NCBI GenBank assembly: GCA_012517355.1
Contig: JAAYVD010000112.1
Span: 1 to 64,000, forward strand
Source of the DNA: Candidatus Rifleibacteriota bacterium
Lineage (GTDB): Bacteria > Muiribacteriota > Ozemobacteria > Ozemobacterales > Ozemobacteraceae
Direction: 5' to 3'
Length of the DNA stretch: 64,000 nt
Of the stretch, positions 5,450 to 62,904 are shown one piece after another. Under the pieces are notes generated by a model. The model worked only from the letters and a program-made list of their open reading frames with translations, did no database searches and was not told the origin of the DNA. Within the stretch, counting starts at the first letter, position 1. Each line of letters begins with the position of its first letter. Position numbers and translations under genes: made by a program.

Positions 5450-5896
5450 GCGACCGCCCCTCCACACCCACCGCGGGGCAGCCCCGCCCAACGCCAGAGG
5501 TTCCCCTCCCAGGCCCTGCCATGACGGCGGGGCCTGGTCGCCTTTCCCCCCGAAGGGGCTCCGTCCGTGGAAAGGCGCGACGGGGCACGACAACCGCCAG
5601 GGAAGGAGGGGAAGCCCGGAATCGAAATCCGGAGGAAAGGGGAAGGGGGGGAAGCGGGAGAAGGGGCGAGGGTGGAAAGGCCGATCTGGCGATGGCTCAC
5701 CAGCCAGGCGGGGAGGAGCAGAAAAGACCGGGATGGAAGGGACAAACCCCGTGCGTTGAGCGAGCCGGGCGTTTCGCCCCACCATCCCGACGAAGGGGCC
5801 CTTCCGACGTCGTGTCGGGTTCGAAGGAGGGGAAAAAGAACCCCCGGGGCGAGGCTCGGTCTTCCTCGCACCCGGGGTTGGGCAAACCGGAGAGGG
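5450..5896. other. Intergenic stretch with hairpins and one dispersed-repeat copy
   Basis: No convincing gene lies here between the convergent trmFO and the giant lipoprotein gene. A perfect hairpin GCGGGGC-A-GCCCCGC at 5472-5486 is 23 bases after the trmFO stop. A nested inverted repeat GCCTTTCC...GGAAAGGC spans 5540-5576. A copy of the dispersed palindromic repeat occupies 5742-5819. Short frames on both strands lack family resemblance or ribosome-binding sites. Confidence 0.6.
5742..5819 (+). repeat. Dispersed palindromic repeat, copy A (diverged 5' half)
   Basis: The 3' half matches the family consensus closely: GGGCGTTTCGCC, then AAGGGGCCCTTCCGAC and the terminal hairpin CCGACG-TCG-TGTCGG. 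The 5' arm is degenerate. It lies in non-coding DNA. Confidence 0.7.
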
Positions 5897-19829: not shown

Positions 19830-21944
19830 TCAGGGGGCCGCGGGGGCCGTGGCAGCGTCTGCGGCTGCGTCGCGAGGGGCCACCGGGGCGGTGGCAGAGG
19901 CTGGGGCGGCCGGGACGGCCGCCGAAGCGGTGGGCAGGGCGGGCGGGCCGACGAAGGTGATGAGGCCGGCGGGCGGCGGGGAGATCCGTTCGTGGCGCTT
20001 CAGCCAGGCCAGGAGGGCATCGCGCATCAGGAATCCGGTCTCCTGGCGGCGGGCCGCTTCCCGAAAGAGTTCGCGGCCGTTCTGGTTGCCGTCGGCCAGG
20101 TAGTTGATGGTGACGACCCGATAGTCCTTCGCCGCTTCCAGCGGCCGGCCGCCGACGCGGATGTCGCGCACCTCGCGCCGGTCGAGATCGTAGGTGGCAG
20201 TGAGGCCGGCGTATTGGTAGCCGGTGATCTGCCCGTAGTTGGCGCAGATGAACTGCAGCATCGCCTGCACCGCCGCCCCGTTCATCGTGAGGACGACCAG
20301 CGTGTTGTCGAAGGGCAGCACCTGGAACACCCGGCCCATGGTGACCGGGCCGGCAGGAATGGCGTCGCGGATCGAGCCCGAATTCATGATGGCCAGGTCG
20401 GCCCCGGTGAATTCACGCATCGTCTCGCAGATGAAGGTGCCCAGGGGCAGGTCGCGCTCGTGCTTCTCCACCTCGGGGTAGGGCAGGTCCTCCAGGCAGG
20501 TGCCGACGATCTGGGTGGTCTGGGCGCGGATCCGTTCCTCGTATTTCGAAACCAGGCGGGCCACGGGGGAGTCGAGCGGCACCGTGACCGAGGCGTCGAT
20601 CGGGACCAGGCGGCCGGACCAGGCCTGCAGACCGGCGGGGCCGAACCCCAGGTCGAGCCGGCCAAGGTAGTAGCCCCATTTGAACGCCTGCACCACCAGG
20701 GTACCCACGGGGCGGGAGCCGCCGGCCGGTCGCGGCCCGCCCACCACCACGGTGGGTTCGGCCTTCACCAGCACCGGGCTCTCGAGATAGGTGTTGGTGT
20801 GACCGCCGATGATCACGTCGAGGCCGGGCAGGTCGGCGGCCAACTGCTGGTCGCCCTCGTAGCCGGAATGGGAAAGGAGGACGACGAGGTCGGCGGACGG
20901 CCGCAGCCTGGCCAGCAAAGGGGCCAGAGCCTCCCGGGGTTCGACGAACTCGTACCCCTGCCGGCGGTTCTCGGGGATGACCGACCAGGCCTCGCTGCCG
21001 ATGCAGCCCAGGACGGCGATCTGGCGGCCGGCCCGCTCGAACAGGCGGTAGGTGGGGAAGACCGGCCGGCGGGTGTCGGCGTGCAGGATGTTGGCGCACA
21101 GCAGGGGGAACCCGGCAGTCTTGTACTTTTCTATCAGATGTGTCATGCCATCGTCGAGTTCGTGGTTGCCCATGGTGGTGGCATCGTAGCCCATGAGAGC
21201 GAATGCGGCGAGGTCGACCTCCCCCTTGAAGAAGGTGTAGAACGAGGTGCCCTGGAAGATGTCGCCCCCGTCGAACAGCAGCACGTGGGGCTCGGCGGCG
21301 CGGATGGCGCGGATGACCTCGGCGCGGCGGGCGATGCCGCCCAGGTCCTTGCCGAAGGCGGGCATGTCGAAGGGAAGGAGGTGGGCGTGGGTGTCGTTGG
21401 TGTAGAGGATGGTCAGGGTGGCGACGTCAGGCCGCGGCACCGCGGTGGGGCTGGCCACGGCGGCGGCGGAACCCGGCCCCCTGGCGGTGCTGCCGGGCGG
21501 CGGGGCGGGCAGGGGCGGCGGCACCGGGACACCGGGCGCGGCGGGGACCGCTTCCGGGCCGGCGGAAGAGCCGGTCGGCCCTCTGGCGAGGCGCGTAGCG
21601 GGCAGTCCGGGCCGGCCCTCGCGGAGGCCTGGGGCTCTCTCCGACCACACATCGGTCGGGGCGGGGAAGGGAATGCCGGAGGCCGCGACGACAGCAGGAG
21701 GAATGGCGGCTCCCGCGAGGGGAGGGGCGGGCTGATCGGCGGCCAGCAGGCCGGCCAGGAGGACGAGGGGCAGGAGGGTCGTCAGGAGGATGGGCAGGGC
21801 GGGTCGCGCCACCCGGCGGGGGCGGCCGCCGGGGAACCCACTGGTGATGAGCGGAACGGACGTTTCGCGCCGGCCTTCGCGGCGGCCAAGGGGCCCTTCC
21901 GACATCGTGCCGGTCGGGGGGGCAGACGGGCGGCGGCACACCAT
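19830..21944 (-). CDS. 5'-nucleotidase / UshA-like metallophosphoesterase, with two repeat-derived inserts near the N-terminus
   Basis: 704 residues. The calcineurin-like domain has ILYTNDTHAHL, FDGGDIFQG, GNHELDDG and GGHTNTYL, all metal-ligand motifs. The C-terminal nucleotidase domain has MNSGSIRD and FDNTLVVL. It hydrolyses nucleotides or UDP-sugars in the periplasm. The membrane-export segment (PILLTTLLPLVLLAGLLAA) begins only after ~48 residues, because a dispersed palindromic repeat is inserted just after the start codon (residues ~9-32). A second, diverged copy encodes residues ~95-123. The ATG at 21944 has GGAGGTGA upstream, overlapping the end of the S9 peptidase gene. The C-terminus is an Ala/Pro-rich tail. 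Confidence 0.88.
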   Translation of the reverse strand: MVCRRPSAPPTGTMSEGPLGRREGRRETSVPLITSGFPGGRPRRVARPALPILLTTLLPLVLLAGLLAADQPAPPLAGAAIPPAVVAASGIPFPAPTDVWSERAPGLREGRPGLPATRLARGPTGSSAGPEAVPAAPGVPVPPPLPAPPPGSTARGPGSAAAVASPTAVPRPDVATLTILYTNDTHAHLLPFDMPAFGKDLGGIARRAEVIRAIRAAEPHVLLFDGGDIFQGTSFYTFFKGEVDLAAFALMGYDATTMGNHELDDGMTHLIEKYKTAGFPLLCANILHADTRRPVFPTYRLFERAGRQIAVLGCIGSEAWSVIPENRRQGYEFVEPREALAPLLARLRPSADLVVLLSHSGYEGDQQLAADLPGLDVIIGGHTNTYLESPVLVKAEPTVVVGGPRPAGGSRPVGTLVVQAFKWGYYLGRLDLGFGPAGLQAWSGRLVPIDASVTVPLDSPVARLVSKYEERIRAQTTQIVGTCLEDLPYPEVEKHERDLPLGTFICETMREFTGADLAIMNSGSIRDAIPAGPVTMGRVFQVLPFDNTLVVLTMNGAAVQAMLQFICANYGQITGYQYAGLTATYDLDRREVRDIRVGGRPLEAAKDYRVVTINYLADGNQNGRELFREAARRQETGFLMRDALLAWLKRHERISPPPAGLITFVGPPALPTASAAVPAAPASATAPVAPRDAAADAATAPAAP
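21577..21660 (+). repeat. Dispersed palindromic repeat, copy C (diverged, inside CDS)
   Basis: Matches copy B most closely: GGCCGGCCCTCGCGGAGGCC and CTCTCCGACCACACATCGGTCGG correspond to the consensus middle and 3' hairpin. It lies in frame in the minus-strand nucleotidase gene and encodes a peptide aligning with that of copy B (PTDVWSERAPGLREGRPG). Confidence 0.55.
21849..21917 (+). repeat. Dispersed palindromic repeat, copy B (inside CDS)
   Basis: Core CGTTTCGCGCCGGCCTTCGC, then AAGGGGCCCTTCCGACATCG matches the consensus. It occupies codons right after the start of the minus-strand nucleotidase gene, encoding PTGTMSEGPLGRREGRRE, upstream of the hydrophobic export segment. Confidence 0.8.
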
Positions 21945-36037: not shown

Positions 36038-37027
36038 GTGACCGGCCCGATCGACTTCGACGAGATGCTGGCGAAGGTCGCCCCCGACAACCCGAATCGT
36101 TCCTTTCTGCTCAAGAGCCTGATCGAGATCCGCGCGGGCCAGGACGACCAGGCCCTGATGACCAGGCTGATGACCGGCCTCGTGATGAAATACGCCGAGA
36201 GCGAGCGGCAGCTGAACCGGCTCAACGCCGAACTGCGCGAGAAACAGGAGCACCTCGACGCCGACCTCAAGGCCGCCGCGGTCATCCAGACGGCGCTGCT
36301 GCCCAAGCCCCTGCCCGCCGCCTCGAACGTGCGCGCCGCCTGGAAGTTCGTTCCCTGCCAGAGCATCGGCGGCGACGTGTTCCTGCTCACGCCGCTGGGC
36401 AAGCGGTATCTGATGGTGGCCGTCGTCGACATCAGCGGTCACGGGGTACCCTCGGCCATGGTGACCGTCTCGGTCTGCCAGTTCCTGCAGCCCCAGGCGG
36501 GAACGGTCTTCCAGCCCGGGGCCGGCCCCGACGGCGCGGTGGTGCCACCCGGCCAGGTGCTGGCCTCGCTCGACCGCGAGTTTCCCTATTTCCGTTTCAA
36601 GAAGACCTTTTCGATCTTCTACGGCGTGCTCGACCGCGTCACCGGCCGGTTCACCTTCGCCAACGGCGGGCACCCGCAACCCTTCCTGCAGACCCCCGAC
36701 GGCGCCCTCACCACCCTCGAGGAGCACGGCCCCATCATCGGCATGGGCCTGGGCTCGACCTTCCCGGAAGGGTCGCTCACCCTCTCCCCCGGCAGCCGCC
36801 TGACCTTCTACTCCGACGGCCTGACCGAATGCCGCAACCCCTCAGGGGAGCTGTTCGGTGACGACCGGGTGCGCGACCTGCTCGCCGCGCACCACGCCCT
36901 GCCCCTCCCCGACCTCGCCGCCGCGATCCATGCCGGGGCCAGCAGATTCGTGGCGGGAGCGGGTTTTCCCGATGACTTCACCCTCGTCCACCTGGAGTTC
37001 GCCGGCCCGCCCGCCTCCCCCGCTTGA
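36038..37027 (+). CDS. RsbU-like PP2C/SpoIIE serine phosphatase
   Basis: 329 residues. Residues ~1-85 are helical and may form a dimerisation stalk. The rest is a SpoIIE-type PP2C domain: SIGGDVFLL and VVDISGHG give the first metal ligands, YSDGLTE and DDFTLVHLEF the last. It should dephosphorylate the STAS protein encoded three genes upstream. There is no sensory domain of its own, so input may come from the neighbouring metallo-beta-lactamase-fold protein (inference). The start is a GTG two bases after the previous stop. Confidence 0.93.
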   Translation: MTGPIDFDEMLAKVAPDNPNRSFLLKSLIEIRAGQDDQALMTRLMTGLVMKYAESERQLNRLNAELREKQEHLDADLKAAAVIQTALLPKPLPAASNVRAAWKFVPCQSIGGDVFLLTPLGKRYLMVAVVDISGHGVPSAMVTVSVCQFLQPQAGTVFQPGAGPDGAVVPPGQVLASLDREFPYFRFKKTFSIFYGVLDRVTGRFTFANGGHPQPFLQTPDGALTTLEEHGPIIGMGLGSTFPEGSLTLSPGSRLTFYSDGLTECRNPSGELFGDDRVRDLLAAHHALPLPDLAAAIHAGASRFVAGAGFPDDFTLVHLEFAGPPASPA

Positions 37028-39909
37028 GGGACGGCGACCAGCAGCACGTCCCCGCCATGGTCACCGCCACGCCAGCGGCATCGCCGGGGATGTTTCCTCA
37101 GACGGCCTTCCCCCACCCCTCCGGCACGGTTCGGCAGTTCGTCGCCGCCCGGTGGGAGTTGCAGGGAACCGGTGGGAAACCGCCCCAACACCCGCGAGAT
37201 CCGGGCCGCCCGGCGACCCGGGTCAGTGGCCCCGGCCGGCCGTGGCCGGAAGCGGGTTTATGGCGTGCGGGCTGGCTGGCCTTGTCACTGGTGTGCCTGA
37301 TCCTGCTGGCCGACCCCGCCCTCGTCGCGGCTGCCGAAGGCCGGGGAACGGAGGGGGACCAACTGCAGACCGGTCCCTGGTGGGGCATCGGGCCGCTGGC
37401 GGCGACCGCCTCGCCGGCCGGTCTGCTCTCTTCAGCGGGCAGGCCAGACCCGGGGCGTGATCATCCCGGCCGGGACGGCCCGACGCGCTGGCGCGAGGTT
37501 CCCGCCTGGGCCGACCCCGGGGAGATCCACGACGTGGCCGGAGAACTGGCCACGGGCAACGGCCCCGCCTCGGCCGCGGCTTTCCAGGTTCTCTCCAGCC
37601 CGGCCGGCGGCGAGGCCTGGTGGTATGTCAGCGCGGACGACCTGTTCGAAGGCTGGGTGAACGGGGAACGGGTGGCCTGGCAGGACCGGCCCCTGGACTG
37701 CCGGCCCCGGCGACGGGCGATCCGGATCCGCTTGCGCCCGGGGGCCAACACGGTCTTCCTGGCCCTGGCGAACGTCGATGGGCGTTTCTGCTTCGCCAGC
37801 ACGTTCGAGGCCATCCCCGACCTCCCCGGGGAGGTGGTCCGGCTGCGGCGGACCATCGGGCGGTGGCCCCGCGTGTTCGACCGCGAGGCCGCCCTGGCAC
37901 TGCTCGGGTATCTGCGGGGAACCCCTCTGCCGGAGTCGGCCTTTCCCTATTACGATTCGGAGTTCATGCGGTCGATGACCGAACCCGGCGAAGAGATCGG
38001 GCGGCTGCAGGACGACCTGGACCAGCCGGGGACCGGGGCCCTGCGTCCGTCGAGGTTGTTCCGGCTGGCGGAGGTCATTCGCGACGCCGGGTTGGCGGAA
38101 GAGGCGTCGACCTGGCTGCTCCACCTTCTGGCCGGGCGATTCGCGGCCTCTCTCGCGGGCGTGGCCGGGGGGACGGTCCCAGGCAGGGATCCGGCGGGGA
38201 AGGCCGTGGGGGCGGACGGCCCCTCGGCGGGGCGCGAAACGGATGATTCGCGCCGCCATCCGTGGGGGCAAAGGGGCCCTTCCGACATCGGGCCGGTCGA
38301 CCCCCTGGTTGGGCGTGAGCGGGGTGGCACGCCCCGCCAACCGGGGCGCGGAGGGGACCCGGACGAGATGGGGCCGGACCGGACGGCGGCGGATTTCGGC
38401 CCGGTCGTACAGCAGACGCCCTGGCTGCTGGCGGGACCGGGGGCCGACCTGACGCGGGCGGTGGCCGCCAGTCTGCTGGGGCCGGACGGCACCGTCGACT
38501 GCCGCCGCCCCCTGCCGGGTCTCGCCGGCCAGAGGTCAGACTCCCTTCCCGACCCTCGACCGGATCGGCCCCTTCGCGATGCCCGAAGCGGGCGTTTCGC
38601 GCCGCCATCCGTGGCGACCAAGGGGCCCTTCCGACATCGTGTCGGTCGGCCCCTTTGCGGTGCGCGAAACTGGCGTTTCGCGCCGCCATCCGTGGCGGCA
38701 AAGGGGCCCTTCCGACATCGTGTCGGTCGGGACGAGGGAACGGAGCCGGGGGCGGGCGCCGAACGCGCCCGGGGTGCGGATTCCTGGCGGTTGGTGGCCT
38801 CCTGGACGACGGAGACGGGGCCCCACGACATCGCCGACGTGGTAGCCGGGCCGACCGACGGGCAGGCGGTCCTGCTCACGCGGACGCTCTTCGCCTCCGC
38901 CGAGGTGGACGCCTGGGTCTTCCTGGCCGCCGACGACTGGCTGGACGTCTGGCTCAACGGCCGCCACCTGTTCGCCCCCAACGGGCGGCCCAGCGCCTTC
39001 CTCCCCCGCCAGCAGGTGGTGAAGGTGCGTTTGCGGCGGGGGGTGAACCCTTTGCTCCTGCGGGTCGAGAACCATGCGGGGGCCTGCGCCTTCGCCCTGG
39101 AGGTGCATCCGCTGGCCGACTGGCCGGCGCGGAGCGCTCGGCTGGTCCGGCTCATCCGGTCGTTTCCGCCCGCCTTCGACCCGGACCTGACCGCCGGGGT
39201 GCTCCCCTTTCTCGCCTGGCCGCGTCTTCCCCGTCGCCTGGCGGACGCCTATCGCGAGCTGACCTTCCACCCGATCGCCGACCCCGAGGCGGAGATCCGG
39301 TTCCTGCAGCAGGCGCTGCGCACCGCGACCGAGCCGATAGCCCTCGATGCCGCCCGGTTCCGCCTGGCCGAACTCTGCGGGCAACTCGGACTGGGTGGGA
39401 TCCTGGGGCGGCACCTGCGGTCCCAGCGGGACCGGGCCGGACTCGACGGGCCCCGCCTGTGGCGCGGGGCGCTGGCGGTGTTCCACTCCGGCCGGTTCGC
39501 CGAGGGGATCGGGGAGCTCCAGCGGGTGGCGGACCTGTTCCCGGAACTGGGGGCCGCCCGCCTGGGCCTGGCCGAGGTGCTCTCCTGGAGGGCCTGGCAG
39601 ACGCTGGATTACCGGGTGCGGGACCAGGCCTGGGAGGCCTGGCAGCGGGTGGACCGGGCGGACCGCGCCCGACCGGCCGCCCTGGCCGCCCAGGCCGGCC
39701 TGTGGTACCTGTTCGCCCGGAAGGACACGGCCAACCGGTGGTTCGAAGCCGCCCTGCGGGCTGACCCGCGGAACCTGTCCGCCTGGCTGACCCGGTGGGA
39801 GGTCCGCTCACCCTTTCCCGACCAGGCGGCGGAAGGGGCCTATCTGCGGGAGTTCGCGGTCTGGGACGACCGGACCGCCCGCGAATGGTACCGGGAGATC
39901 GAACCGTGA
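37024..39909 (+). CDS. Secreted, internally duplicated beta-sandwich/helical repeat protein carrying three palindromic-repeat inserts
   Basis: Up to 961 residues. The start is uncertain: TTG at 37024 overlaps the phosphatase stop; ATGs at 37057 and 37090 are alternatives. An export segment lies at residues ~79-103 (WLALSLVCLILLADPALVAA). Two copies of one module follow. Each has a beta-sandwich with the pattern ...DLFEGWVNG... / ...DWLDVWLNG..., then VR(I/V)RLR.G.N. Each then has a ~100-residue helical part (RLxRxI...PxxFD ... EIxxLQ ... RLAE). The C-terminus (~815-961) is TPR-like. Dispersed repeats insert at residues ~399-426 and ~515-569 between the modules. Its stop overlaps the cyclase GTG, so it is probably the periplasmic partner of the cyclase. 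Confidence 0.75.
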   Translation: MRDGDQQHVPAMVTATPAASPGMFPQTAFPHPSGTVRQFVAARWELQGTGGKPPQHPRDPGRPATRVSGPGRPWPEAGLWRAGWLALSLVCLILLADPALVAAAEGRGTEGDQLQTGPWWGIGPLAATASPAGLLSSAGRPDPGRDHPGRDGPTRWREVPAWADPGEIHDVAGELATGNGPASAAAFQVLSSPAGGEAWWYVSADDLFEGWVNGERVAWQDRPLDCRPRRRAIRIRLRPGANTVFLALANVDGRFCFASTFEAIPDLPGEVVRLRRTIGRWPRVFDREAALALLGYLRGTPLPESAFPYYDSEFMRSMTEPGEEIGRLQDDLDQPGTGALRPSRLFRLAEVIRDAGLAEEASTWLLHLLAGRFAASLAGVAGGTVPGRDPAGKAVGADGPSAGRETDDSRRHPWGQRGPSDIGPVDPLVGRERGGTPRQPGRGGDPDEMGPDRTAADFGPVVQQTPWLLAGPGADLTRAVAASLLGPDGTVDCRRPLPGLAGQRSDSLPDPRPDRPLRDARSGRFAPPSVATKGPFRHRVGRPLCGARNWRFAPPSVAAKGPFRHRVGRDEGTEPGAGAERARGADSWRLVASWTTETGPHDIADVVAGPTDGQAVLLTRTLFASAEVDAWVFLAADDWLDVWLNGRHLFAPNGRPSAFLPRQQVVKVRLRRGVNPLLLRVENHAGACAFALEVHPLADWPARSARLVRLIRSFPPAFDPDLTAGVLPFLAWPRLPRRLADAYRELTFHPIADPEAEIRFLQQALRTATEPIALDAARFRLAELCGQLGLGGILGRHLRSQRDRAGLDGPRLWRGALAVFHSGRFAEGIGELQRVADLFPELGAARLGLAEVLSWRAWQTLDYRVRDQAWEAWQRVDRADRARPAALAAQAGLWYLFARKDTANRWFEAALRADPRNLSAWLTRWEVRSPFPDQAAEGAYLREFAVWDDRTAREWYREIEP
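38219..38299 (+). repeat. Dispersed palindromic repeat, copy D (inside CDS, in frame)
   Basis: About 81 bases. GCGCGAAACGGATGATTCGC then GCCGCCATCCGTGG and AAAGGGGCCCTTCCGACATC match the consensus. Read in the host gene's frame it gives SRRHPWGQRGPSDIG. Confidence 0.85.
38567..38649 (+). repeat. Dispersed palindromic repeat, copy E (inside CDS, first of a tandem pair)
   Basis: Begins GGCCCCTTCGCGATGCCCGA and ends with the perfect hairpin CCGACA-TCG-TGTCGG. Copy F follows head-to-tail with a period of 81 bases. Confidence 0.92.
38648..38730 (+). repeat. Dispersed palindromic repeat, copy F (best-structured copy)
   Basis: GGCCCCTTTGC (38648-38658) pairs perfectly with GCAAAGGGGCC (38698-38708). 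Inside are stem GCGCGAAAC/GTTTCGCGC with loop TGGC (38662-38683) and stem CGCCA/TGGCG with loop TCCG (38684-38697). A 3' hairpin CCGACA-TCG-TGTCGG follows at 38712-38726. The whole is a three-way junction plus hairpin. Confidence 0.95.
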
Positions 39910-42900
39910 CCCGCGCGGCTCCCCCGGGCACCGCCCCGGTCGTTCCCCCGGTCGCTTCCCCGGTCGCTTCCCCGGTCGTGTCGCCTTCCGCTTCCCCGGA
40001 CACGCGCCTGGGCGTTTCCCCGGCCGACTCCCCGGCCCCCCTCCAAGCGCCCACCGCTGTGGACGCCCCCGCCGCGTTCCCGGCGGACCTGTCCCCGCTC
40101 CCGACCGACCCGTCGTCGGCCGGCGCCCCGGGCGGCCCGGGGCGGGGGAACGGGCCGCCGGTTGCGGACCGGGCCCAGGGGTCCCCGCCCCGCGGGCCGC
40201 GCGCCGCCTGGATCTCACTGGTCATGAACTGGGGGGTCCCGTTCCTGCTGAGTCTGCTGCCGCTGGTGGTCCTGCACCTCGCGGCCGGAGAGGAGCAGGC
40301 CAGGCGCGGAGCGGATGCGCGCCGGGAGCGGCGGGAACGGGTCCGCCTCCAGGCCGACCATCTGCGCCGGGCCTCGTCCTTCCCGTTCTGGGCCGAGCGG
40401 GCCGCCCGCCTGCTCAAGCGGGGCGCCCTGGCCGGGCTGGCCGGGACCCAAAGCCGGGGGCAGAACCCCGGCCACGCCGCCGCCCCGCCCCACACCGGGG
40501 ACGTCTCCGGAATCGGCCCACCCCCAGCCAAGGGCGAAGCGGCCGTGCCGATCCGTCATCCGTGGCCCCCACCAGGAGATCCTTCAGACATCGGGTCGGG
40601 TGGGACGGGCCATTTCGGCGGACCGCGGTCGCCCCCTTCCCCAACCGGAACCGCCGCCACTCCCGACCCCTCATCGGCCGAAATCGGGAGGCCGGTCGGG
40701 GTGCCGTTTTCCGGCGGGCGGCCAGGCCGGTTCCTCGTGCCCACCCCCGCCCCGGGAGGCGGGCCGGCAACCAACCGCGCCGGGGTGGCGGAAGCTCTGG
40801 CCAGGGGCCTGGGGACGGCCCTGCGTCGCCTGCAGAGATCGGAACCCCGGCCAGGGGCGGCCACGCCGTTTCGCGGCAGGCGGGGCGGCCAGGGCATCCT
40901 GCCGACCTCTGAGCGGTCGAACCTGGCGGGGTGCCAGGTATGGGCCGTTGCCTTTCCCACCGGGAATCCGGCCGAGGGGGTGGAACCCTGCCGGGCCCCT
41001 CCCCTCCGCCAGGATTTCTCCGCCCTGATGACCGGCCTGTTGCAGGACATCGGCCGGCAGCAGGCGATCGAGGCGGAGGAGGGAAAGGCGGCGCGCCACG
41101 CCGGGGGGGGCAAGAATGACGAGAGCGGTGGGGGAAGCGAGAGGCCGGCCGGGCCGTTCGACGCCACCCGGCTGCGGAGGCTGGAGGCAGGCTTCGGTGA
41201 GGGGTTGTCCGCCGACCTGTTCACCGGCAGCCACCGCGGAACCGGCTTTCCCGTGCTGTTCCGCGGAATTCCCCACATCATGGTCTGGGACCTCGTCTTC
41301 TTCCGGGAACGGACGGTCGGGGCCTTCCTGGTGCTGCTGCCGCTGCCCGACGAGGCCGGCCACGCCGCGCTGCAGTTGACCCTGCGGTACTGGCCGAAAG
41401 GCGGGTTCCGGCCGGCGTTTCTGCCCATGCCGACCGAGCGGCGGGGGATCCTGCCTCCCCCCCTGCTCCACCCCGACCTGGTCCGGGCCCCCGTCCTGGC
41501 CGACATCGAGCGGCTTCGTCGCCAGATGCGGATCTGGCAGCCGGCCGGCACCCGGTTCGAGGGCACCCGGGTGGGGCTGCTGGCCCCCTTCACCGGCCGG
41601 CTGGTCCGGTTGCCGGCCGCCGCGGGATGGTGGGGCATGGTCACCCCCCTCGATCCGCTGACGGGACACCTGGGACTGCTGGTCGGACGCTTTCCCGACC
41701 TGCCCCCCTCCGCCCTGGATCTGTTCCGCGGGATGGCCGACATGGCCTGGATCTTCGTCTGGATCATGGTCGCCATCCGGGCCGCCCTGGTGGGGACGCG
41801 CCCGGCCGGCGTCCGGCGTCAGGCCACCCTGTGGCTGCTCGGCGTCACCGGCATGCCGGTGGTGCTGGGGATCATGGTCGGCGTCCAGCTGAACGGAGAC
41901 CTGCGTTCCAACCGGCTCGAGCAGCTCGAACGCGACCTGGAACGGGCGATGGGCGACCTGGAGACCGGCGCCAACCGGCTCAACGACCGCATCGTCCAGC
42001 AGTGCAAGGAGCGGTTCCATGAGGGGGGGTTCCGGGCGGCCCTGCGGCAGGCCATCGCCAACCCAGCCGCCCGGGAAGGGTTCCTGCGCGACCTGGCCGC
42101 GGGCTTCCGGCGGCACGGGCTGCCCATCTCGGGCCTCCGGGTGATGGGACGGGACGGCCAGGCCATGGAATCCTTCGCGCCCTGGCTGCGGCAATTGTCC
42201 ATCCGGCAGCTGCAGGCAAGCCTGCAGGATGCCTGGGACCTGTATCTCGCCGGGCCCGATGGGGGCCGGAAAAGGCCGACCACCACCCTCGCCAGGTGGC
42301 AGCAGAACGTCTTTGCCGTCAAGGGGGCCGAGGAACAGCCGCTCGCCTGGCAGTCGGGCAACCGCAAGTTCTTCCTCTGGCGGATGATCATACAGGAGAA
42401 GGGCCGGCCGTTCTGCCAGGTGGCGGTGGTCTGGAGCCACGAGAAGCTGTACCGGGCCTACCTCGAGCGGGCGGTGCAGGGACCGGGGCTGTTCTCCGGC
42501 CGGACCGACCTCTCCCTGTCGGTCTATCTGCCGCAGGGGGACGACCTCGAGGAGGTTGGTGCCTCCGCCAATCTGGTGGCCGGGCGCGAGGATCTGCGGC
42601 GAGTGGCCCGGGCAGCGGTGCGGGCGAAGATGCGCCGGATCACGGAGGATGCCCTGACGGTGGGTTTCCCGAGCGAGCGCCTGCCGGGCTACGTCTTCCT
42701 GGGCCAGGCGTCGCTCGCGCCCCTGCGGGCGGAGCTGTGGCGGGAATGGCTCGGCATCGGCATCGTCACCCTCGGGCTGTTCGCCCTCGTGCTCGCGGCG
42801 GCGCGGCTGCTGGGGTTCCGGCTGGCCGCGCCGGTGGTGCGCATGACCGCGGAACTGCGGCGGGTGGCCGCCGGAGACTACGCGGCCCGGGTCGGCGACG

Positions 42901-45900
42901 ACCGCCGGGACGAGCTGGGACAGGCCGGCCGGGCGCTGGACCGCATGACCGGCTGGCTGGCCGAGCGGCAGGAGATGAGCCGGTTCGTCTCCTCCCAGGT
43001 GCTGGACGTGGTGGCCGCCGGGGACTACCGGGGGGCCATGGCCGGCACCCAGCGCGAGGTGGCGATCCTGATCTCGGACATCCGGTCGTTCACCACCCTG
43101 TCGGAGGAGCATCCGGCCCGGGATATCTTCGCCCTGGTGAACGGGCACATGGAGGCCATGACCCGCGCCATCCAGGCGGAAGGCGGGATGATCGACCGGT
43201 TCGTCGGGGACGCCGTGCAGGCGGTCTTCTACGCGGCCGAGGCCGGAACGCCGGGGGTGGGCGGCCCCGCCGACCGCGCGATCCGGGCGGCCCGGGCGAT
43301 GCGCAAAGCGCATCTGGCCAGGATCGAGGCCCGCCGGCGGGAAGGGTTGTTCCCCTACGAGATCGGCATCGGCATCGAGCAGGGAACGGTGGTGGCCGGC
43401 GTCATGGGCGACGGGCAGGCCCGGCTGGACTTCACGGTGCTGGGAGAGCCGGTACAGGCCGCGGCCGAACTGGAAGCCGGCTCGAAGCACGGCACCGCCA
43501 CGAAGATCATCGTCTCCGACCTGGTCAGGCAGACCGTTGGCGAGAGTGTCCCGTGCCGCCGCCTGCCCGACGGCCACCCCGGCTGGGAACTCGCTTCGCT
43601 CGAGGAGGGCGCTCCCCCCGCCTCCCCCGCCTCCCCCGCCGTCCCCCTTCCCGATCCCGCCCCCATCACGCCAGCCCGGCCTCCCCGCCTCCCCCGCCCT
43701 GATCCCCCCACCTTCCCATCCGCCCACCACCGCACCTCCCACCTTCCCTCCCTCGCAAGGCCATCATCTCCCCAACCCGCCACGCTCCCCGCGCCTCACC
43801 CCCCGCCTCCCCACCTCGCCGCCTCCCCCTTTCCCTCCTACGGCGGCCTGCTTCCCCTGCTGGTTCTGTGGCTGGTGCCCGCCGGCCTCCTCTTTCTCGG
43901 GGCGGCGGCCCTGCGACAGGCGGGAATCCGCCAGGCGATCGGCGAGGCGAGGGACCAGGTGCGGGAACGCCTCGGCCGGCTGGAGGGGGAGATGCGGCCG
44001 GAAACCCTGGCGGCAAGGCTGCTCGCCGGAATCGTCATCGGGGCCGGCCACCCTCGCCGGGGAACGCCGGCCGGCCCTCTGAACCCGGAGGAAGCCAACC
44101 GCCTCGGACGGGCGTTGGCCAGCGCCAACGCGAAATCTGCCGGCGCGGCGACGACGGCCAGGCCGGGGAGGCCGTCATCCGGCCGCTTTTTCGTCCTCTC
44201 CGCCCCCGCCGACATCGATCCGGGATCGGCGTGGGGGACCGAATACATGCCCAGGATCCGGCCCGCCCAGGTGCGGCTCCTGTTCCAACGCGCCCGGGGC
44301 GACTTCCCCCTGAGCCTCGACGAGGTCCGCCGATTCGCCACGATCCTCCTCATGATGGAGATCGACCCCCTGTTCACCCCCAATCGCTCCTATTTCCGCC
44401 TGTCCGACTGGTTCTACCGGTGGTTCCAGCGCTTCTTCGTCGGGCCTCGCGGGGGAGCCATCGGCCACCACGGGTTCATCCGCAACGCCCTGCTGTCCCG
44501 CGGCAACCTGCTGCCGATGCGCTTTTGCGAAAGCGACTGGCTGATGTTCTGGCTGCCGGTCAGGCGGCAGCCCGGTGCCGGTGATGGCGGAAACCGGACC
44601 GCCCAGGAGGGGCCGGGAACGGACCGGGGACTCCCGAGAACCGGCGGCACTGGCCTCTCAGCCCGTTCAAGCCGGGATGAGGGGGATCCTGACGGGGACG
44701 GGCCCCGCCCGGAGGAAGCCCGCCAGGGGGGCATCAGCCAGGCCACGGTCATCGGAAGCGGATCGCCCGGGGCAATCCCCGCCGGCACCCCGCCAGGGCC
44801 GTACTCCCCGCCAGCCGGGGACCGGGCGGCTGCCGCGGAGGGGCCGGTGGCGGGGCTGGTATTGGCTTTCCTGCCCGGCAAGGGGCTGGCACCCGAGGCC
44901 GGCTACCGATTCCTGGCCCAGGACCTGGCCCGCCAGGGGTTTCCCGCCGCGATCGCCTGGAAGGCCGGTCGGAGACGCCGCCTCGTCCGCACGGGGGCCT
45001 TCCGGAAAGCAGGGCTGTCCGCACAAGAACCGGGCGACGCACCATTCACGCTCGAGGAGCGGGCGGGGTGGGTGGTCGGGTCGCAGGTGTCGGGGGGGCT
45101 CCGCCCCGCCCGGGTGTTCCTGGCCCGGGATTGGCACCGGCACCTGCCGTGGTCGGCACACCTGGGGACAGCGGGGATCCTGGCCGCCGGGGGTTGGCTG
45201 CTGCTCGGGGGCTGGACGGTCTGGCGGCTGGGCCGTGGCGAACGCGGGGCCCCGGCCTCGTTGCGGGGCCTGCTGATGGGAACCTTCGCCCTGGTGGTGG
45301 TTCCCACCCTGGCCGTCGGGTTCTTCGGGGTCGAGCGGTCGCTGCTGGAGCGGGCCACCCGGCTGCGGGCCGACCGGGCCCGCGACCTGACCGACCTCCT
45401 GGCGGCGGTCGACCGCAGCCAGGACCTGGCCCTCACCTTCGCCTGCAACCTTGTGGCGACCCAGCTCGACCGGCCGGAGTTCCTGGCCGACCTGGCCCGG
45501 TTCGAGAAAGGATGGCCACCACCCGACCGCCCCGATGCCCCGCCTCCGATGCGCTCCCTCCTGGTGGCCTGCCAGTTCCTGGGGCTGTGGCCGCGGGCCG
45601 CCGAACTGGTGTCGGTCACCGGCCTGACCGGCGGCAGCGGGCACGACCAGCGGTTTTTGGAAGCCCTGCGGTGGTTGTGGAACCGCAACCTGTCCGCCCG
45701 GCACGCCGCGGCGGGGGCCGACCTTCCCGTCTCGCAGCGGCGCGCGAACCTGGTGGTGGGGACCCAGGTGGAGGAGTTCGGAACGATCCTCCGCAGCCTG
45801 ATGCCTCCCGCGGGTCTCGCGGCCTGGATGAGCGCGCCCCGCGCGGTGGTGTCGGTCAGCTCCTCTCTGGAGGAGCCCCAGTTCTTCTCGACCCACCACC

Positions 45901-47216
45901 TGCGCCGGGACGGCATCCCCACCTGGATCGCCGAGGTACAGTTCTCCCAGGGGCCTCTCCTGCGGCTCGCCCTCGAAGACTGGGACCGGTATCTGGCCCT
46001 GGCCCCCCACCCCGGATGGCGGATCGGCGTCTCCAAGCGGACGTTTCCCGGATGGCGGCTGGTCTCCCCCTTCGTATCGACCGACTGGGAACCGGGTCCG
46101 AAACCGGCCGACCCAGGCTTCTACCGGCAGACCCCGACCGTTCGGGGCGAGGAACCCCGAACGACCCTGCTCTGCCGGATGGCCGCCGAGGGCGGGCGGC
46201 CCGCCATCGTCCTTCCCGAGAGACGGGCGACCGGTCGGCTGTTCGCCGCCACGCCGGGTGGGGGGCCCGGCAACCTGCTGTTCTACGGCTCCCTGCCGGC
46301 GGCGGCCATCTTCGACGAGGCCGAAACCCAGGCCGCCGGCCAGCGCGGGCTCCTGCTGGCGCTGGCCGTCCTGGCCGCCCTGCTGGCCGCCGGCGTGGCC
46401 GAGGCCTTCCTGCAGCCGCTGCTCGCCCTGGCCGCGGCCGCCCGCCGCCTGATGGGGCGCGAGTTCACCGCCCGCGTGCCCCAGGACCGGGACGACGAGT
46501 TCGGCCACCTGGCCACCGCCTTCAACGAGATGGCGGCCGGGGTCGAACAGGGGCGGCGGCTCCGGCGGTTCGTCTCCGACTCGGTCCGCGTCGCGGCCGG
46601 GAACCGCGACCGCGCCGCCGCCGCCCGGGCCGGTGAGCACCGGGAGGCGGTCGTCCTGTTCGCCGGCCTCGGAGGGTTCAAGCCCCTGCTGCACACCGTG
46701 CCGCCCACCGCACTGGTCGCCGACCTCAACCGGTTCCTGGCGGGCGCGGCGGCCGCGGTGCGGGCCGAGGGCGGCGAGATCGACAAGTTCATCGGCGAAA
46801 AGGTGCTGGCCGTCTTCCACCCCGACCGCTTCGGGTCGGCCACCGCCGCCCTGGCCGCCGCCCTGCGCGCGGCGACCCGTCTGGCCGAAGACACCCGCGC
46901 CCTGCCGGCCTGGCGCGACCACCCGGTAGGCATGGGCCTGGTGGCGGGGAAGGTCCTGGCCGGCATCCTGGGCACGGCCGAGGTGCGCCTGGAATACACC
47001 GTCCTCGGCGATACCGTCAATCTCGCCGCCCGACTGTGCGACCTCGCGCTCCGGGAGGGCGGCGGCCTGGCCGTCGAGCAGGAGTCGCTGGCGCGGGCGG
47101 ACGCCCTGGCCGACCCCCGGTTCCGACGGCTGGGCGGGATCGCCCTCAAGGGCAAGACCCGCACCGTCGACTGCTGGCTGGCCCCGTCCCTCGGCCGGCC
47201 GGCCGGAACCAGGTGA
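39906..47216 (+). CDS. Two-headed transmembrane class III adenylate cyclase with complementary C1/C2 domains
   Basis: 2436 residues from a GTG overlapping the previous stop (GTGA). Two halves share one plan: TM, large outer domain, TM-TM, outer domain, TM, HAMP, cyclase. TM segments lie at about 102-125, 608-632, 639-665, 949-972 and 1315-1337, 1752-1775, 1789-1810, 2149-2170. Cyclase 1 (~1050-1200) has metal ligands D1058 and D1102 but Q1184 and E1188 where Asn/Arg should stabilise the transition state, and R1098 for the purine Lys. Cyclase 2 (~2245-2400) has G2254 and E2298 in place of the aspartates but keeps K2294, T2365, N2372 and R2376. One composite active site for ATP is inferred. The N-terminus and inter-half linker are Pro-rich. 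Confidence 0.88.
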   Translation: MTRAAPPGTAPVVPPVASPVASPVVSPSASPDTRLGVSPADSPAPLQAPTAVDAPAAFPADLSPLPTDPSSAGAPGGPGRGNGPPVADRAQGSPPRGPRAAWISLVMNWGVPFLLSLLPLVVLHLAAGEEQARRGADARRERRERVRLQADHLRRASSFPFWAERAARLLKRGALAGLAGTQSRGQNPGHAAAPPHTGDVSGIGPPPAKGEAAVPIRHPWPPPGDPSDIGSGGTGHFGGPRSPPSPTGTAATPDPSSAEIGRPVGVPFSGGRPGRFLVPTPAPGGGPATNRAGVAEALARGLGTALRRLQRSEPRPGAATPFRGRRGGQGILPTSERSNLAGCQVWAVAFPTGNPAEGVEPCRAPPLRQDFSALMTGLLQDIGRQQAIEAEEGKAARHAGGGKNDESGGGSERPAGPFDATRLRRLEAGFGEGLSADLFTGSHRGTGFPVLFRGIPHIMVWDLVFFRERTVGAFLVLLPLPDEAGHAALQLTLRYWPKGGFRPAFLPMPTERRGILPPPLLHPDLVRAPVLADIERLRRQMRIWQPAGTRFEGTRVGLLAPFTGRLVRLPAAAGWWGMVTPLDPLTGHLGLLVGRFPDLPPSALDLFRGMADMAWIFVWIMVAIRAALVGTRPAGVRRQATLWLLGVTGMPVVLGIMVGVQLNGDLRSNRLEQLERDLERAMGDLETGANRLNDRIVQQCKERFHEGGFRAALRQAIANPAAREGFLRDLAAGFRRHGLPISGLRVMGRDGQAMESFAPWLRQLSIRQLQASLQDAWDLYLAGPDGGRKRPTTTLARWQQNVFAVKGAEEQPLAWQSGNRKFFLWRMIIQEKGRPFCQVAVVWSHEKLYRAYLERAVQGPGLFSGRTDLSLSVYLPQGDDLEEVGASANLVAGREDLRRVARAAVRAKMRRITEDALTVGFPSERLPGYVFLGQASLAPLRAELWREWLGIGIVTLGLFALVLAAARLLGFRLAAPVVRMTAELRRVAAGDYAARVGDDRRDELGQAGRALDRMTGWLAERQEMSRFVSSQVLDVVAAGDYRGAMAGTQREVAILISDIRSFTTLSEEHPARDIFALVNGHMEAMTRAIQAEGGMIDRFVGDAVQAVFYAAEAGTPGVGGPADRAIRAARAMRKAHLARIEARRREGLFPYEIGIGIEQGTVVAGVMGDGQARLDFTVLGEPVQAAAELEAGSKHGTATKIIVSDLVRQTVGESVPCRRLPDGHPGWELASLEEGAPPASPASPAVPLPDPAPITPARPPRLPRPDPPTFPSAHHRTSHLPSLARPSSPQPATLPAPHPPPPHLAASPFPSYGGLLPLLVLWLVPAGLLFLGAAALRQAGIRQAIGEARDQVRERLGRLEGEMRPETLAARLLAGIVIGAGHPRRGTPAGPLNPEEANRLGRALASANAKSAGAATTARPGRPSSGRFFVLSAPADIDPGSAWGTEYMPRIRPAQVRLLFQRARGDFPLSLDEVRRFATILLMMEIDPLFTPNRSYFRLSDWFYRWFQRFFVGPRGGAIGHHGFIRNALLSRGNLLPMRFCESDWLMFWLPVRRQPGAGDGGNRTAQEGPGTDRGLPRTGGTGLSARSSRDEGDPDGDGPRPEEARQGGISQATVIGSGSPGAIPAGTPPGPYSPPAGDRAAAAEGPVAGLVLAFLPGKGLAPEAGYRFLAQDLARQGFPAAIAWKAGRRRRLVRTGAFRKAGLSAQEPGDAPFTLEERAGWVVGSQVSGGLRPARVFLARDWHRHLPWSAHLGTAGILAAGGWLLLGGWTVWRLGRGERGAPASLRGLLMGTFALVVVPTLAVGFFGVERSLLERATRLRADRARDLTDLLAAVDRSQDLALTFACNLVATQLDRPEFLADLARFEKGWPPPDRPDAPPPMRSLLVACQFLGLWPRAAELVSVTGLTGGSGHDQRFLEALRWLWNRNLSARHAAAGADLPVSQRRANLVVGTQVEEFGTILRSLMPPAGLAAWMSAPRAVVSVSSSLEEPQFFSTHHLRRDGIPTWIAEVQFSQGPLLRLALEDWDRYLALAPHPGWRIGVSKRTFPGWRLVSPFVSTDWEPGPKPADPGFYRQTPTVRGEEPRTTLLCRMAAEGGRPAIVLPERRATGRLFAATPGGGPGNLLFYGSLPAAAIFDEAETQAAGQRGLLLALAVLAALLAAGVAEAFLQPLLALAAAARRLMGREFTARVPQDRDDEFGHLATAFNEMAAGVEQGRRLRRFVSDSVRVAAGNRDRAAAARAGEHREAVVLFAGLGGFKPLLHTVPPTALVADLNRFLAGAAAAVRAEGGEIDKFIGEKVLAVFHPDRFGSATAALAAALRAATRLAEDTRALPAWRDHPVGMGLVAGKVLAGILGTAEVRLEYTVLGDTVNLAARLCDLALREGGGLAVEQESLARADALADPRFRRLGGIALKGKTRTVDCWLAPSLGRPAGTR
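40516..40602 (+). repeat. Dispersed palindromic repeat, copy G (diverged, inside the cyclase CDS)
   Basis: GATCCGTCATCCGTGG and CCTTCAGACATCGGGTCGGG match the consensus; the 5' arm is degenerate. It encodes IRHPWPPPGDPSDIG, in the same frame as the peptide of copy D, in outer domain 1 of the cyclase. Confidence 0.6.
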
Positions 47217-47461
47217 CGAAGGCGGCGCCGGAAGCCATCTTTCCCGCCTGGGGCAAGGTGGCTGCACTGGCCATCGGCGCCTGCTGGCGGCGGAGGGCAT
47301 CCTGCCCTCTTGCCCCGCCTTGCCCCCATGGAGCCCGGGAGCGCGCCACGGCGGAGATCCTGCCGCCGGGGATTCACAGCGGCAGAACCGTCAGACCTCC
47401 GGTTCCAGAAGGTCCGTGAATCCGCCTGGCCGTGAAGACAGGATTCCGGAGCCCGACCCGT

Positions 47462-47692
47462 TCAGGGTGCCGCCGGGGCGGGAAGGTTCGACCGACCGGC
47501 CTCGGCGCTCGCCGCCGGGACCGGCGCGGGGCTGGGGGCCTGCCCATTCCGGGCCGTGATCGACCACAGCGTCTGGGTGACCACCGCCAGGCTGCTCTGG
47601 GAAAGAACAATCGACAGGACGAAGGCGAACACGAAGCACCAGAACGCCTGCCCGATCAGGATCAACCGACGGTACCGTTCCAACTGGCTCAT
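47462..47692 (-). CDS. Small single-pass membrane protein
   Basis: 76 residues. A basic N-terminus (MSQLERYRRL), one transmembrane helix (LIGQAFWCFVFAFVLSIVL) and a Pro/Ala-rich tail. GAGAGGA precedes the ATG. No family is recognised; it faces the end of the cyclase gene. Confidence 0.6.
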   Translation of the reverse strand: MSQLERYRRLILIGQAFWCFVFAFVLSIVLSQSSLAVVTQTLWSITARNGQAPSPAPVPAASAEAGRSNLPAPAAP

Positions 47693-47882
47693 GCAGTCCT
47701 CTCATGCGGCCGCCAAGGCCGGATTCCCGCGACACGCAGCCTTCCGCCCCGCTGGCGCGAAGCCGGAAAGGTGGCCCGGGGTCGCGGTCCGGACCATCGG
47801 CTTCCCTCATCGGCAGGTTTCCACGTTCATCCAACCCCCTCCGCCCCGATGGGCCCGCAACTACCCGATTCCACCGGGCAAA

Positions 47883-47964
47883 GGGCCCTTTGCATGGCGC
47901 AAACGGGTGGTTCCCGCCGCCATCCATGGCGACGAGTGGGAATGGCCGGTCTCGCGTCGGTCGG
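47883..47964 (+). repeat. Dispersed palindromic repeat, copy H (non-coding)
   Basis: GGGCCCTTTGCATGGCGCAAAC then GCCGCCATCCATGGCGAC keeps the 5' arm and second hairpin of the consensus; the 3' part is diverged (CTCGCGTCGGTCGG). Its left edge lies in a perfect 16-base palindrome, GCAAAGGGCCCTTTGC (47878-47893). Confidence 0.7.
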
Positions 47965-47996
47965 TGCAAGTGGCCGGTCGGGGGGACCCGGGGTGG

Positions 47997-49202
47997 TCAG
48001 TAGGGCGGCAGCAGGCGCCGGAATCCGTGGGCGAGGACCACGGCCAGGAAGAAGAGGTTGCGGGCCAGCCGCGCTCCCCACCAGGGCCACTGCACGGTGG
48101 TCGCTCCCGGTTCGCCGGCGACGGAGGCGGCGACCTCTTCCAGGTAGGCCGGTGAGCACGGCCAATCCGCCAGGCCTGCCACCCAGTCGGCGGGAAACCC
48201 TGCCGGGCCGACGCCCGCCCCCAGGATGCCGCCCAGGATGGCACCGGTCGTGTCGGCATCCCCGCCGGCGCCGATCATGGCGGAGAGGGCGGTCCGGGGG
48301 TCGTCGCCCCAGCGGAACCAGCACAGGCAGACGGCAGGCACCGTATGCAGGATGTAGCCCGACACTCCATGCGGCGACCCCAGATCCGCCGCAAAAGCGG
48401 CCACCGTGGCGGCGGGGGAGTCGGCTTCCCTCGTCGCGTTGGGAGCGACCGGGAATTCCCCTGAACCGGAGAACGAAGCCGGCGATACCGCCGGGCCGGA
48501 GGCCGGAACCTGGGGGCCGCCCGGTGCAGGTGGGGGAAGGGAGGCCCCGGCGGCCGCGGCCTGGCGAAGGGCCTCCAACAGCGTGGGACCCGCCGGGTGG
48601 CCGGCCAGGGCGGCCGCCACTTCGTCCACGAAGGCGGCGGGATCGGGCCGGCCCCCGCCCTGGCGCATGGCCTGACGGGCCGCCAGGGCGATGACCAGGG
48701 CCCCGGCCTCGGCCCGGGGATCGGTGTGGGTCAGGCGAGTCGACACCCGCACCAGCTCGGCAAGGCGGGCGGGGTCGTCGCCGGCCACCACCCCGAGGAC
48801 GGTGGCCCGCATGGCCGGCCCGTTCCCGGCCGAGACGACCCCGGCGGTGGCCGGCGACCAGCCCAGCCAGAGTTTTCCCAGGGCCCGCAGAGTGGCCCAG
48901 CCCACCCCGGCGGGCAGGGCGGCCACCCACCAGCGCAGGTAGCCGGCCAGGGCCAGGCCGAAGGCGGCCGGCTCGCCGCCGCTGTCCCGACAGGCGAGGG
49001 CGGTCAGCACGGCATGCTCGGTGTCGTCGGACACCATGCCCCGGCCGAACAGGAACCGGTGGCGGAGGGGCGGCGGGAACAGGCGGGCCAGGCGCCGGGG
49101 CGACAGGTTCTCGCAGGGCAGGCCCAGGCTGTCGCCGAGAGCCTGTCCGAGAAGGCAGCCGGCCAGGGCGCGGCGACGATGGTCGCTGGCCGGGAGGCTC
49201 AC
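47997..49202 (-). CDS. ADP-ribosylglycohydrolase (DraG-like) family protein
   Basis: 401 residues. Helical ARH fold with the paired metal sites: SDDTEHAVL near the N-terminus and GGDADTTGAILGG near residue 315, plus GALLG-type N-terminus (GCLLGQALGDSLGLP). Such enzymes remove ADP-ribose from arginine, serine or small molecules. A Pro/Ser-rich insert (residues ~225-265) is not typical. The start is a GTG at 49202 that overlaps the previous gene's stop by four bases (GTGA). Confidence 0.88.
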   Translation of the reverse strand: MSLPASDHRRRALAGCLLGQALGDSLGLPCENLSPRRLARLFPPPLRHRFLFGRGMVSDDTEHAVLTALACRDSGGEPAAFGLALAGYLRWWVAALPAGVGWATLRALGKLWLGWSPATAGVVSAGNGPAMRATVLGVVAGDDPARLAELVRVSTRLTHTDPRAEAGALVIALAARQAMRQGGGRPDPAAFVDEVAAALAGHPAGPTLLEALRQAAAAGASLPPPAPGGPQVPASGPAVSPASFSGSGEFPVAPNATREADSPAATVAAFAADLGSPHGVSGYILHTVPAVCLCWFRWGDDPRTALSAMIGAGGDADTTGAILGGILGAGVGPAGFPADWVAGLADWPCSPAYLEEVAASVAGEPGATTVQWPWWGARLARNLFFLAVVLAHGFRRLLPPY

Positions 49203-59184: not shown

Positions 59185-59267
59185 CCGACCGCCACGAGAT
59201 CGGTCGTCCCCCCATGCCGTTCCGGGTGGCGACGCGAACCCTCCGTTCCGCGCCCGGCACGGGGGCC
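59185..59267 (-). repeat. Dispersed palindromic repeat, copy I (minus orientation, diverged)
   Basis: Read on the minus strand it runs GGCCCCCGTGCCGGGCGCGG, then GGGTTCGCGTCGCCACCC and a 3' hairpin built on CCGATCTCGTGGCGGTCGG. It has the consensus length (83 bases) with many substitutions, several paired in stems. Confidence 0.6.
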
Positions 59268-61146: not shown

Positions 61147-61232
61147 CAGCCCGCGCGCAGGGGGCGAACCGGATGCTTCGCTCCGCCCGTCGTGGCGGCC
61201 AGAGGGGGAAGACCGCCAGGCCGGCGGTCGGC
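61147..61232 (+). repeat. Dispersed palindromic repeat, copy J (strongly diverged)
   Basis: GGGGGCGAACCGGATGCTTC then CCGTCGTGGCGGCCAGAGGGG, and a 3' hairpin ACCGCC-AGGCC-GGCGGT. Bases differ from the consensus but the hairpin order is kept. Confidence 0.45.
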
Positions 61233-62819: not shown

Positions 62820-62904
62820 GGCCCCTTTGCCGTGCACGAAACAGGCGTTTCGCGCCGCCATCCGTGGCGGCAAAGGGGGGCCCTTCCGGCATCGCGTCGT
62901 TCGG
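62820..62904 (+). repeat. Dispersed palindromic repeat, copy K (well conserved)
   Basis: GGCCCCTTTGCCGTGCACGA, then GGCGTTTCGCGCCGCCATCC and GTGGCGGCAAAGGGG keep the outer stem and both inner hairpins; the 3' hairpin is altered. Confidence 0.9.

Follow-up and report, generated by a model that had tools for sequence, protein, structure and literature searches.

A family of short structured DNA repeats with features of site-specific mobile elements in an Ozemobacter genome

Results

The window, i.e. the whole stretch of 64,000 nucleotides that was analysed, belongs to contig C8 of a draft genome of 7.11 Mb (184 contigs, 96% complete; G000) and carries eleven copies of a short structured repeat. 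One hundred and forty-seven copies were counted in 813,606 bases of this genome, taken in stretches (18 per 100 kb), and the repeats probably constitute a REP/RPE-like family of non-autonomous, site-specific mobile DNA, the mobilising enzyme of which would act in trans. The observations behind this reading are the abundance, structure and covariation of the units, a target motif, no detectable target duplication, presence/absence differences between relatives, mostly independent array mates and insertion into genes in frame. The first-pass annotation of the window had proposed that these structured mobile repeats form a genome-wide family, and the number of copies, the covariation and the orthologous sites empty in relatives bear this out.

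From its sequence, the host was assigned to a species of the genus Ozemobacter, phylum Riflebacteria; its topA was 87-88% identical to those of Candidatus Ozemobacter sibiricus BY5 and of another Ozemobacteraceae bin. Comparisons were made with O. sibiricus (G001, a non-carrier), a further Ozemobacter genome which carries the repeats (G002), and carriers outside Ozemobacter, from two further genera of its family (G004, 79% complete, and G010, 67% complete). The genomes were drafts, one per species, and gene calls were our own, made with a simple hexamer model.

Copies in the window and folding of the type A unit

The type A unit is 81 bp long (GGCCCC...TCGGTC) and consists of a three-way-junction head followed by a 3' hairpin. 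Copy F (type A, 38648..38728, + strand), which is near the consensus, folded as had been described from its sequence, either as RNA or as DNA: a stem of 10-11 bp closes the structure, arms of 9 and 5 bp meet with three bases unpaired, and a 6-bp hairpin follows. No shuffled sequence folded equally well, neither for the 121-nt RNA segment around copy F (z -5.3) nor for the consensus unit folded as DNA (z -8.0). Copy F is the second unit of a head-to-tail pair and is directly abutted by copy E (type A, 38567..38647, +), with a period of 81; copy D (type A, 38218..38298, +) is in the same open reading frame (961 aa, 37024..39909, +). This frame stays open through the three copies and had no Pfam match; it was left out of the firm in-frame cases described below because the coding signal between copies D-F was weak. 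About 12 kb of the window (37000-49228) was missing from the syntenic site of O. sibiricus (C36:163186-163311); it includes a HAMP/adenylate-cyclase open reading frame of 2,473 codons (39795-47216), to which many stretches are paralogous in each of the three Ozemobacter genomes.

Seven copies were intergenic: A (5746..5819, +, decayed, downstream of the topA-side genes), B (21578..21658, +, decayed), C (21836..21916, +), G (40520..40602, +, decayed, nhmmer E 3.4e-7), H (47884..47963, +, decayed), I (59186..59266, -), and K (62821..62903, +, near consensus, with a 2-bp insertion in the linker). The spacer holding copy I measured 268 bp, vs. 57 bp and no copy in O. sibiricus. Copy J (61149..61231, +), also decayed, retained its 3' hairpin with a different sequence, in agreement with the compensating change previously noted there. 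A profile made from 32 copies recovered all eleven copies of the first-pass annotation, with E-values between 9.5e-24 and 1.4e-5; those listed at 40516 and 61147 gave the poorest matches, and a covariance model agreed for most of the eleven. The positions given earlier were right within a few bases, except that the copy placed at 21849 is better located at 21836. Only D, E, F, K and C were near the consensus; the remaining copies were decayed, and several of these did not form the full structure when folded alone. Type A copies in G000 fell into at least four subfamilies according to the linker between the head and the tail hairpin (CACTT, CCCTT, TATGG and AAGCCCTT, the last of which adds exactly 3 bp).

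Abundance and placement in the genome

The further copies that a genome-wide search had been expected to reveal were indeed found: at least 126 strong copies in G000, with 126 of 126 scored candidates matched. Extrapolation from the sampled bases gave some 1,285 copies in the genome, an upper-side estimate, as the sampled contigs were picked for holding strong copies; the genome-wide total is thus about 10^3 in order of magnitude. The commonest 16-mers in G000 came from the repeat family (up to 32 occurrences), and no 16-mer exceeded 4 occurrences in 340 kb of O. sibiricus.

Sixty-three of the 82 copies located in 456 kb of G000 were intergenic, though intergenic DNA accounted for only 15.6%; an early reading prompted by positions 37024-39909 of the window, according to which copies would be mainly within genes, was ruled out by these figures. 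Adjacent copies were co-oriented slightly above chance (59/100, p 0.04, in 108 clusters from 813 kb of G000), with no tie to GC skew. When named GTDB genomes, plasmids and viral contigs were scanned for exact type A motifs, none was found; one viral contig matching a loose tail pattern was discarded as a chance match, its flanks being AT-rich and unrelated.

A second type of unit and covariation of the stems

A second unit, type B, is 60 bp long and has a two-hairpin layout: its head is unlike that of type A, and the 3' module CACTT-CCGAC-NTCGT-GTCGG-TCGG is common to both. Type B was rare in G000, outnumbered type A in G002, and joined type A in mixed arrays. Type B, and with it the shared 3' hairpin, was present in four genomes of three genera (G000, G002, G004 and G010); the other genomes among the 39 of the phylum did not have it, except for one 23-base match. 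The tail stem read CCCGC/GCGGG in G004 and CCCCC/GGGGG in G010, with loop and flanks as elsewhere. Together with CCGAC/GTCGG, this makes three distinct states of the stem in different genera, which is direct evidence of maintained pairing.

Counts of paired substitutions, which are inflated by the relatedness of the units, pointed the same way: the two stems of 15 type B units gave 21 compensated double-change cells vs. 6.5 +/- 1.7 expected (0 of 500 shuffles as high), and the signal was lost when the partners were slid by 1-3 columns. The excess was modest for type A in G000 (76 compensated double changes vs. 57.5 +/- 6.4, reached by 2 of 500 shuffles); it was evident in the 9-bp arm, and the 3' hairpin by itself did not reach significance. 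The covariation anticipated for this family was therefore seen above shuffles, modestly within G000 and strongly between genomes. Other 16-mers (GCCTCGCAGATCGCCA and GAGGGGAGGGCCGGAC) were present 5-6 times in stretches L137-L156 and L178-L180 of G002, and possibly correspond to a further repeat family or to paralogous genes.

Presence and absence in relatives and insertions in frame

Spacers lacking the copies were found in relatives when orthologous sites were compared, as had been suggested: 6-7 sites were empty in O. sibiricus and one in G002. Spacers in O. sibiricus and G000 measured, respectively, 24 vs. 294 bp at C34:209787, and 115 vs. 425 bp at C34:45744.

The clearest case of putative mobility is nadB (L-aspartate oxidase, L047:12803-14665; TIGR00551, 498.9 bits), in which an antisense B-A-A array sits in frame between the FAD_binding_2 (9-379) and Succ_DH_flav_C (525-599) domains. 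The insert is made of repeat units and amounts to roughly 90-120 codons; nadB was uninterrupted at that point in G002, and the insert was absent from the aligned part of Escherichia coli NadB. This gene is a rare example of a core enzyme with a predicted mobile-repeat peptide. Three more genes hold copies in frame and have coding signal to either side of them: one resembling GlcNAc 2-epimerase, with a single copy in addition to a triple array, one for an ABC1 kinase, and one of 2,252 codons (kinase/AAA/GAF/HisKA). Insertions in frame had not been noted for the window, nor had the type B head, the target motif or the proposed growth of arrays by target regeneration presented below.

Borders, target and arrays

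First units were preceded by GG[A/T][C/G] (third base A in 21 and T in 7 of 34; fourth base C in 20 and G in 9), followed by GGCCCC, whereas the sequence upstream of this motif was unconstrained. At the right end, all units finished in TCGGTC and were followed by GG. Insertion into GG[A/T][C/G]|GG is the simplest reading; the spacers of the relatives, which are 70-85% identical, allowed no exact alignment of an empty site, so this target model rests on flank statistics. A target site duplication was considered for the conserved left flank and ruled out, as left and right flanks were uncorrelated.

The 108 clusters in 813 kb of G000 comprised 78 single, 22 double, 7 triple and 1 quadruple. Arrays were head-to-tail, with periods of 81/84 or 60 (junction spacing of 81 in 21 of 39 junctions and of 84 in 8 of 39). 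For 18 of the 22 array units tested, the closest relative was elsewhere and not the array neighbour. Identical units occurred at unrelated sites of G000; the unit at C34:22898, for instance, was identical to that at C153:19772 and only 90% identical to its own neighbour, an identity that points to recent activity. Since array mates were usually not nearest relatives, most arrays grew by separate insertions; simple tandem duplication was rejected for most of them (18/22 units) and kept for a few (e.g. C77:41114-41355). With GGTC as the last bases of the unit and GG next to them, the junction is again a target, and growth by separate insertions is what a regenerated target predicts.

Discussion

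The observations can be assembled into a mechanism in which a trans-acting enzyme would recognise the folded single strand, chiefly the covarying 3' hairpin (CACTT-stem-[A/C/G]TCGT-stem-TCGG), and would join the unit behind GG[A/T][C/G]|GG without duplicating the target, as HUH-type IS200/IS605 and REP transposases do. Every insertion would leave a fresh target at the junction (the unit end GGTC plus GG), where later copies could land alongside, giving head-to-tail arrays of exact period. Intergenic insertions would survive most often, and stop-free units of 81/84 bp may persist in genes, as in nadB. We infer from the analysis that mobilisation is probably through a single strand, that the 3' hairpin is recognised, and that such an enzyme exists. 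Four observations speak against this explanation. Lagging-strand single-strand transposition predicts an orientation bias, and copy orientation did not correlate with GC skew in the draft G000 (p 0.38); no precise empty site was alignable in spacers; both ends of the arrays looked equally young (19 vs. 11, p 0.2); and no candidate mobilising enzyme was found among the Y1, Y2 and RT genes searched, the one Y1 transposase being apart from the copies and mismatched in distribution.

A bolder reading is less likely, and we propose it tentatively: the repeats would form a hitherto undescribed kind of minimal, site-specific mobile DNA in the Ozemobacteraceae, made of swappable heads and one covarying 3' hairpin, whose enzyme would not be a relative of Y1, Y2 or DDE transposases and whose insertion would recreate the target and thereby generate arrays.

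A classical REP/REPIN family, moved in trans by the single Y1_Tnp gene of G000 (RAYT, TnpA-REP), is unlikely. A link to a REP-associated tyrosine transposase had been suggested in the first-pass annotation, and several features agree with it: Y1_Tnp was found once each in the carriers G000 (L055:1118-2082, contig C109) and G002 (L204) and not in the non-carrier G001, the gene is named REP-associated tyrosine transposase by NCBIfam, though below the cut-off (64 vs. 80 bits), and a short left motif with no target duplication suits this enzyme class. The suggestion is not supported by the surroundings of the gene and its distribution. The G000 gene is single-copy and flanked by its own 27-bp inverted repeats (TTCCGGGGACATGATACCGAA), its G002 relative has similar repeats of its own (22-27 bp, TTCCGGGGACRTGATACSGAA, in the two genomes), and no copy of the family was within about 1.5 kb of either. 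The Y1 gene was not found in the carriers G004 and G010, both incomplete, and it was present in 21 of the 39 genomes of the phylum, many of them non-carriers; moreover, the untagged 60-84 bp units and head-to-tail arrays are unlike REPs (PMC3733652). Neither a cognate Y1 transposase nor a full-length parent element was found in the draft G000 (96% complete), and there was no Y2 (IS91) match (PF04986) in this genome. Further copies of the TTCCGGGGACATGATACCGAA repeat were observed on C127, at 28228 (-) and 30387 (+) as numbered within the stretch taken from that contig.

An internally deleted derivative of a DDE-transposase insertion sequence, i.e. a MITE moved by that transposase, is improbable. 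Small, non-coding, intergenic, high-copy and structured units fit the general description of MITEs, but the ends of the consensus are not complementary (GGCCCCTTTG vs. GACCGACACG, the reverse complement of the 3' end), so that there are no terminal inverted repeats, and no target duplication was detectable in 39 clusters (left and right 3-mers matched in 1, vs. 0.6 expected; p 0.49). In addition, DDE insertion seldom gives exact head-to-tail arrays of independent copies, and no long relative with both ends was found in 813 kb, nearly all orphan tails being type A or B.

That the repeats are regulatory or RNA elements (terminators or mRNA stabilisers), multiplied for their function, is very unlikely. 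Stems kept by covariation and a mostly intergenic location would be expected of such elements; however, the copies in G000 showed no preferred orientation relative to genes and no preference for convergent, divergent or tandem spacers, many were decayed, orthologous sites were empty and a sister species had none, nadB was invaded, and an Rfam scan of the window returned no match of any kind. Finally, spread of RNA copies by a reverse transcriptase, such as those of resident group II introns, would suit the stable RNA-like fold, the short-motif insertion and the four RVT_1 matches in G000, and is highly improbable given that these reverse transcriptases resemble those of ordinary group II introns and are also present in the non-carrier G001.

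The preferred reading, a mobile family served in trans, bears on an old open question, namely how short palindromic repeats without genes of their own (REPs, RPEs) spread. The family offers a clean comparative system, with a definable target and arrays that record successive insertions; its hairpin is constant but for the stem variants GAC/GTC, CGC/GCG and CCC/GGG, for each of which a matching enzyme is expected, and in-frame insertions are predicted to add new segments to the core enzyme NadB. No earlier description of such a family in the phylum Riflebacteria was found in the literature searched.

Comparison with known systems

REPs are single palindromes of 20-50 bp, present in high copy and mainly extragenic, often arranged as inverted (HH/TT) dimers, with an unpaired GTAG or CGTC at one foot in the REP superfamilies and a RAYT gene flanked by repeats (PMC3733652); they are moved by TnpA-REP (PMC8266576, PMC3733652). 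The Ozemobacter repeats resemble REPs and BIMEs in being high-copy, mostly intergenic and species-specific palindromic DNA, with a short motif at one foot, no target duplication and occasional intragenic copies. They differ in their length (60-84 bp), their three-way-junction head, their head-to-tail rather than inverted arrangement, and the lack of an adjacent RAYT gene, and neither the type A nor the type B consensus contains the GTAG/CGTC tetranucleotide. By the tests made (tag, unit length, array form and adjacent RAYT), they are outside the REP superfamilies; they also lack the inverted ends and the target duplication expected of a MITE, and are placed among the small structured non-autonomous mobile repeats.

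Rickettsia palindromic elements also enter genes in frame (PMC10969869). Like them, the Ozemobacter repeats are palindromic, stop-free, a multiple of three in length and found in frame in metabolic genes, but they belong to another phylum, are mainly intergenic, and have regular head-to-tail arrays and a GG[A/T][C/G]|GG target. We know of no sequence common to both, and the two are likened by description only. With the IS200/IS605 (IS608-like) elements the Ozemobacter repeats share subterminal hairpins, insertion on the 3' side of a short motif, the lack of duplication and a motif-like right end; they differ in that no cognate TnpA and no clear target-matching guide sequence were found, and that orientation did not follow GC skew in the draft G000. 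Pneumococcal BOX and other mosaic repeats are likewise modular, with alternative modules joined to a shared one, a likeness of description; modules, target and host are different, and BOX elements repeat boxB internally, whereas the Ozemobacter arrays are made of whole units.
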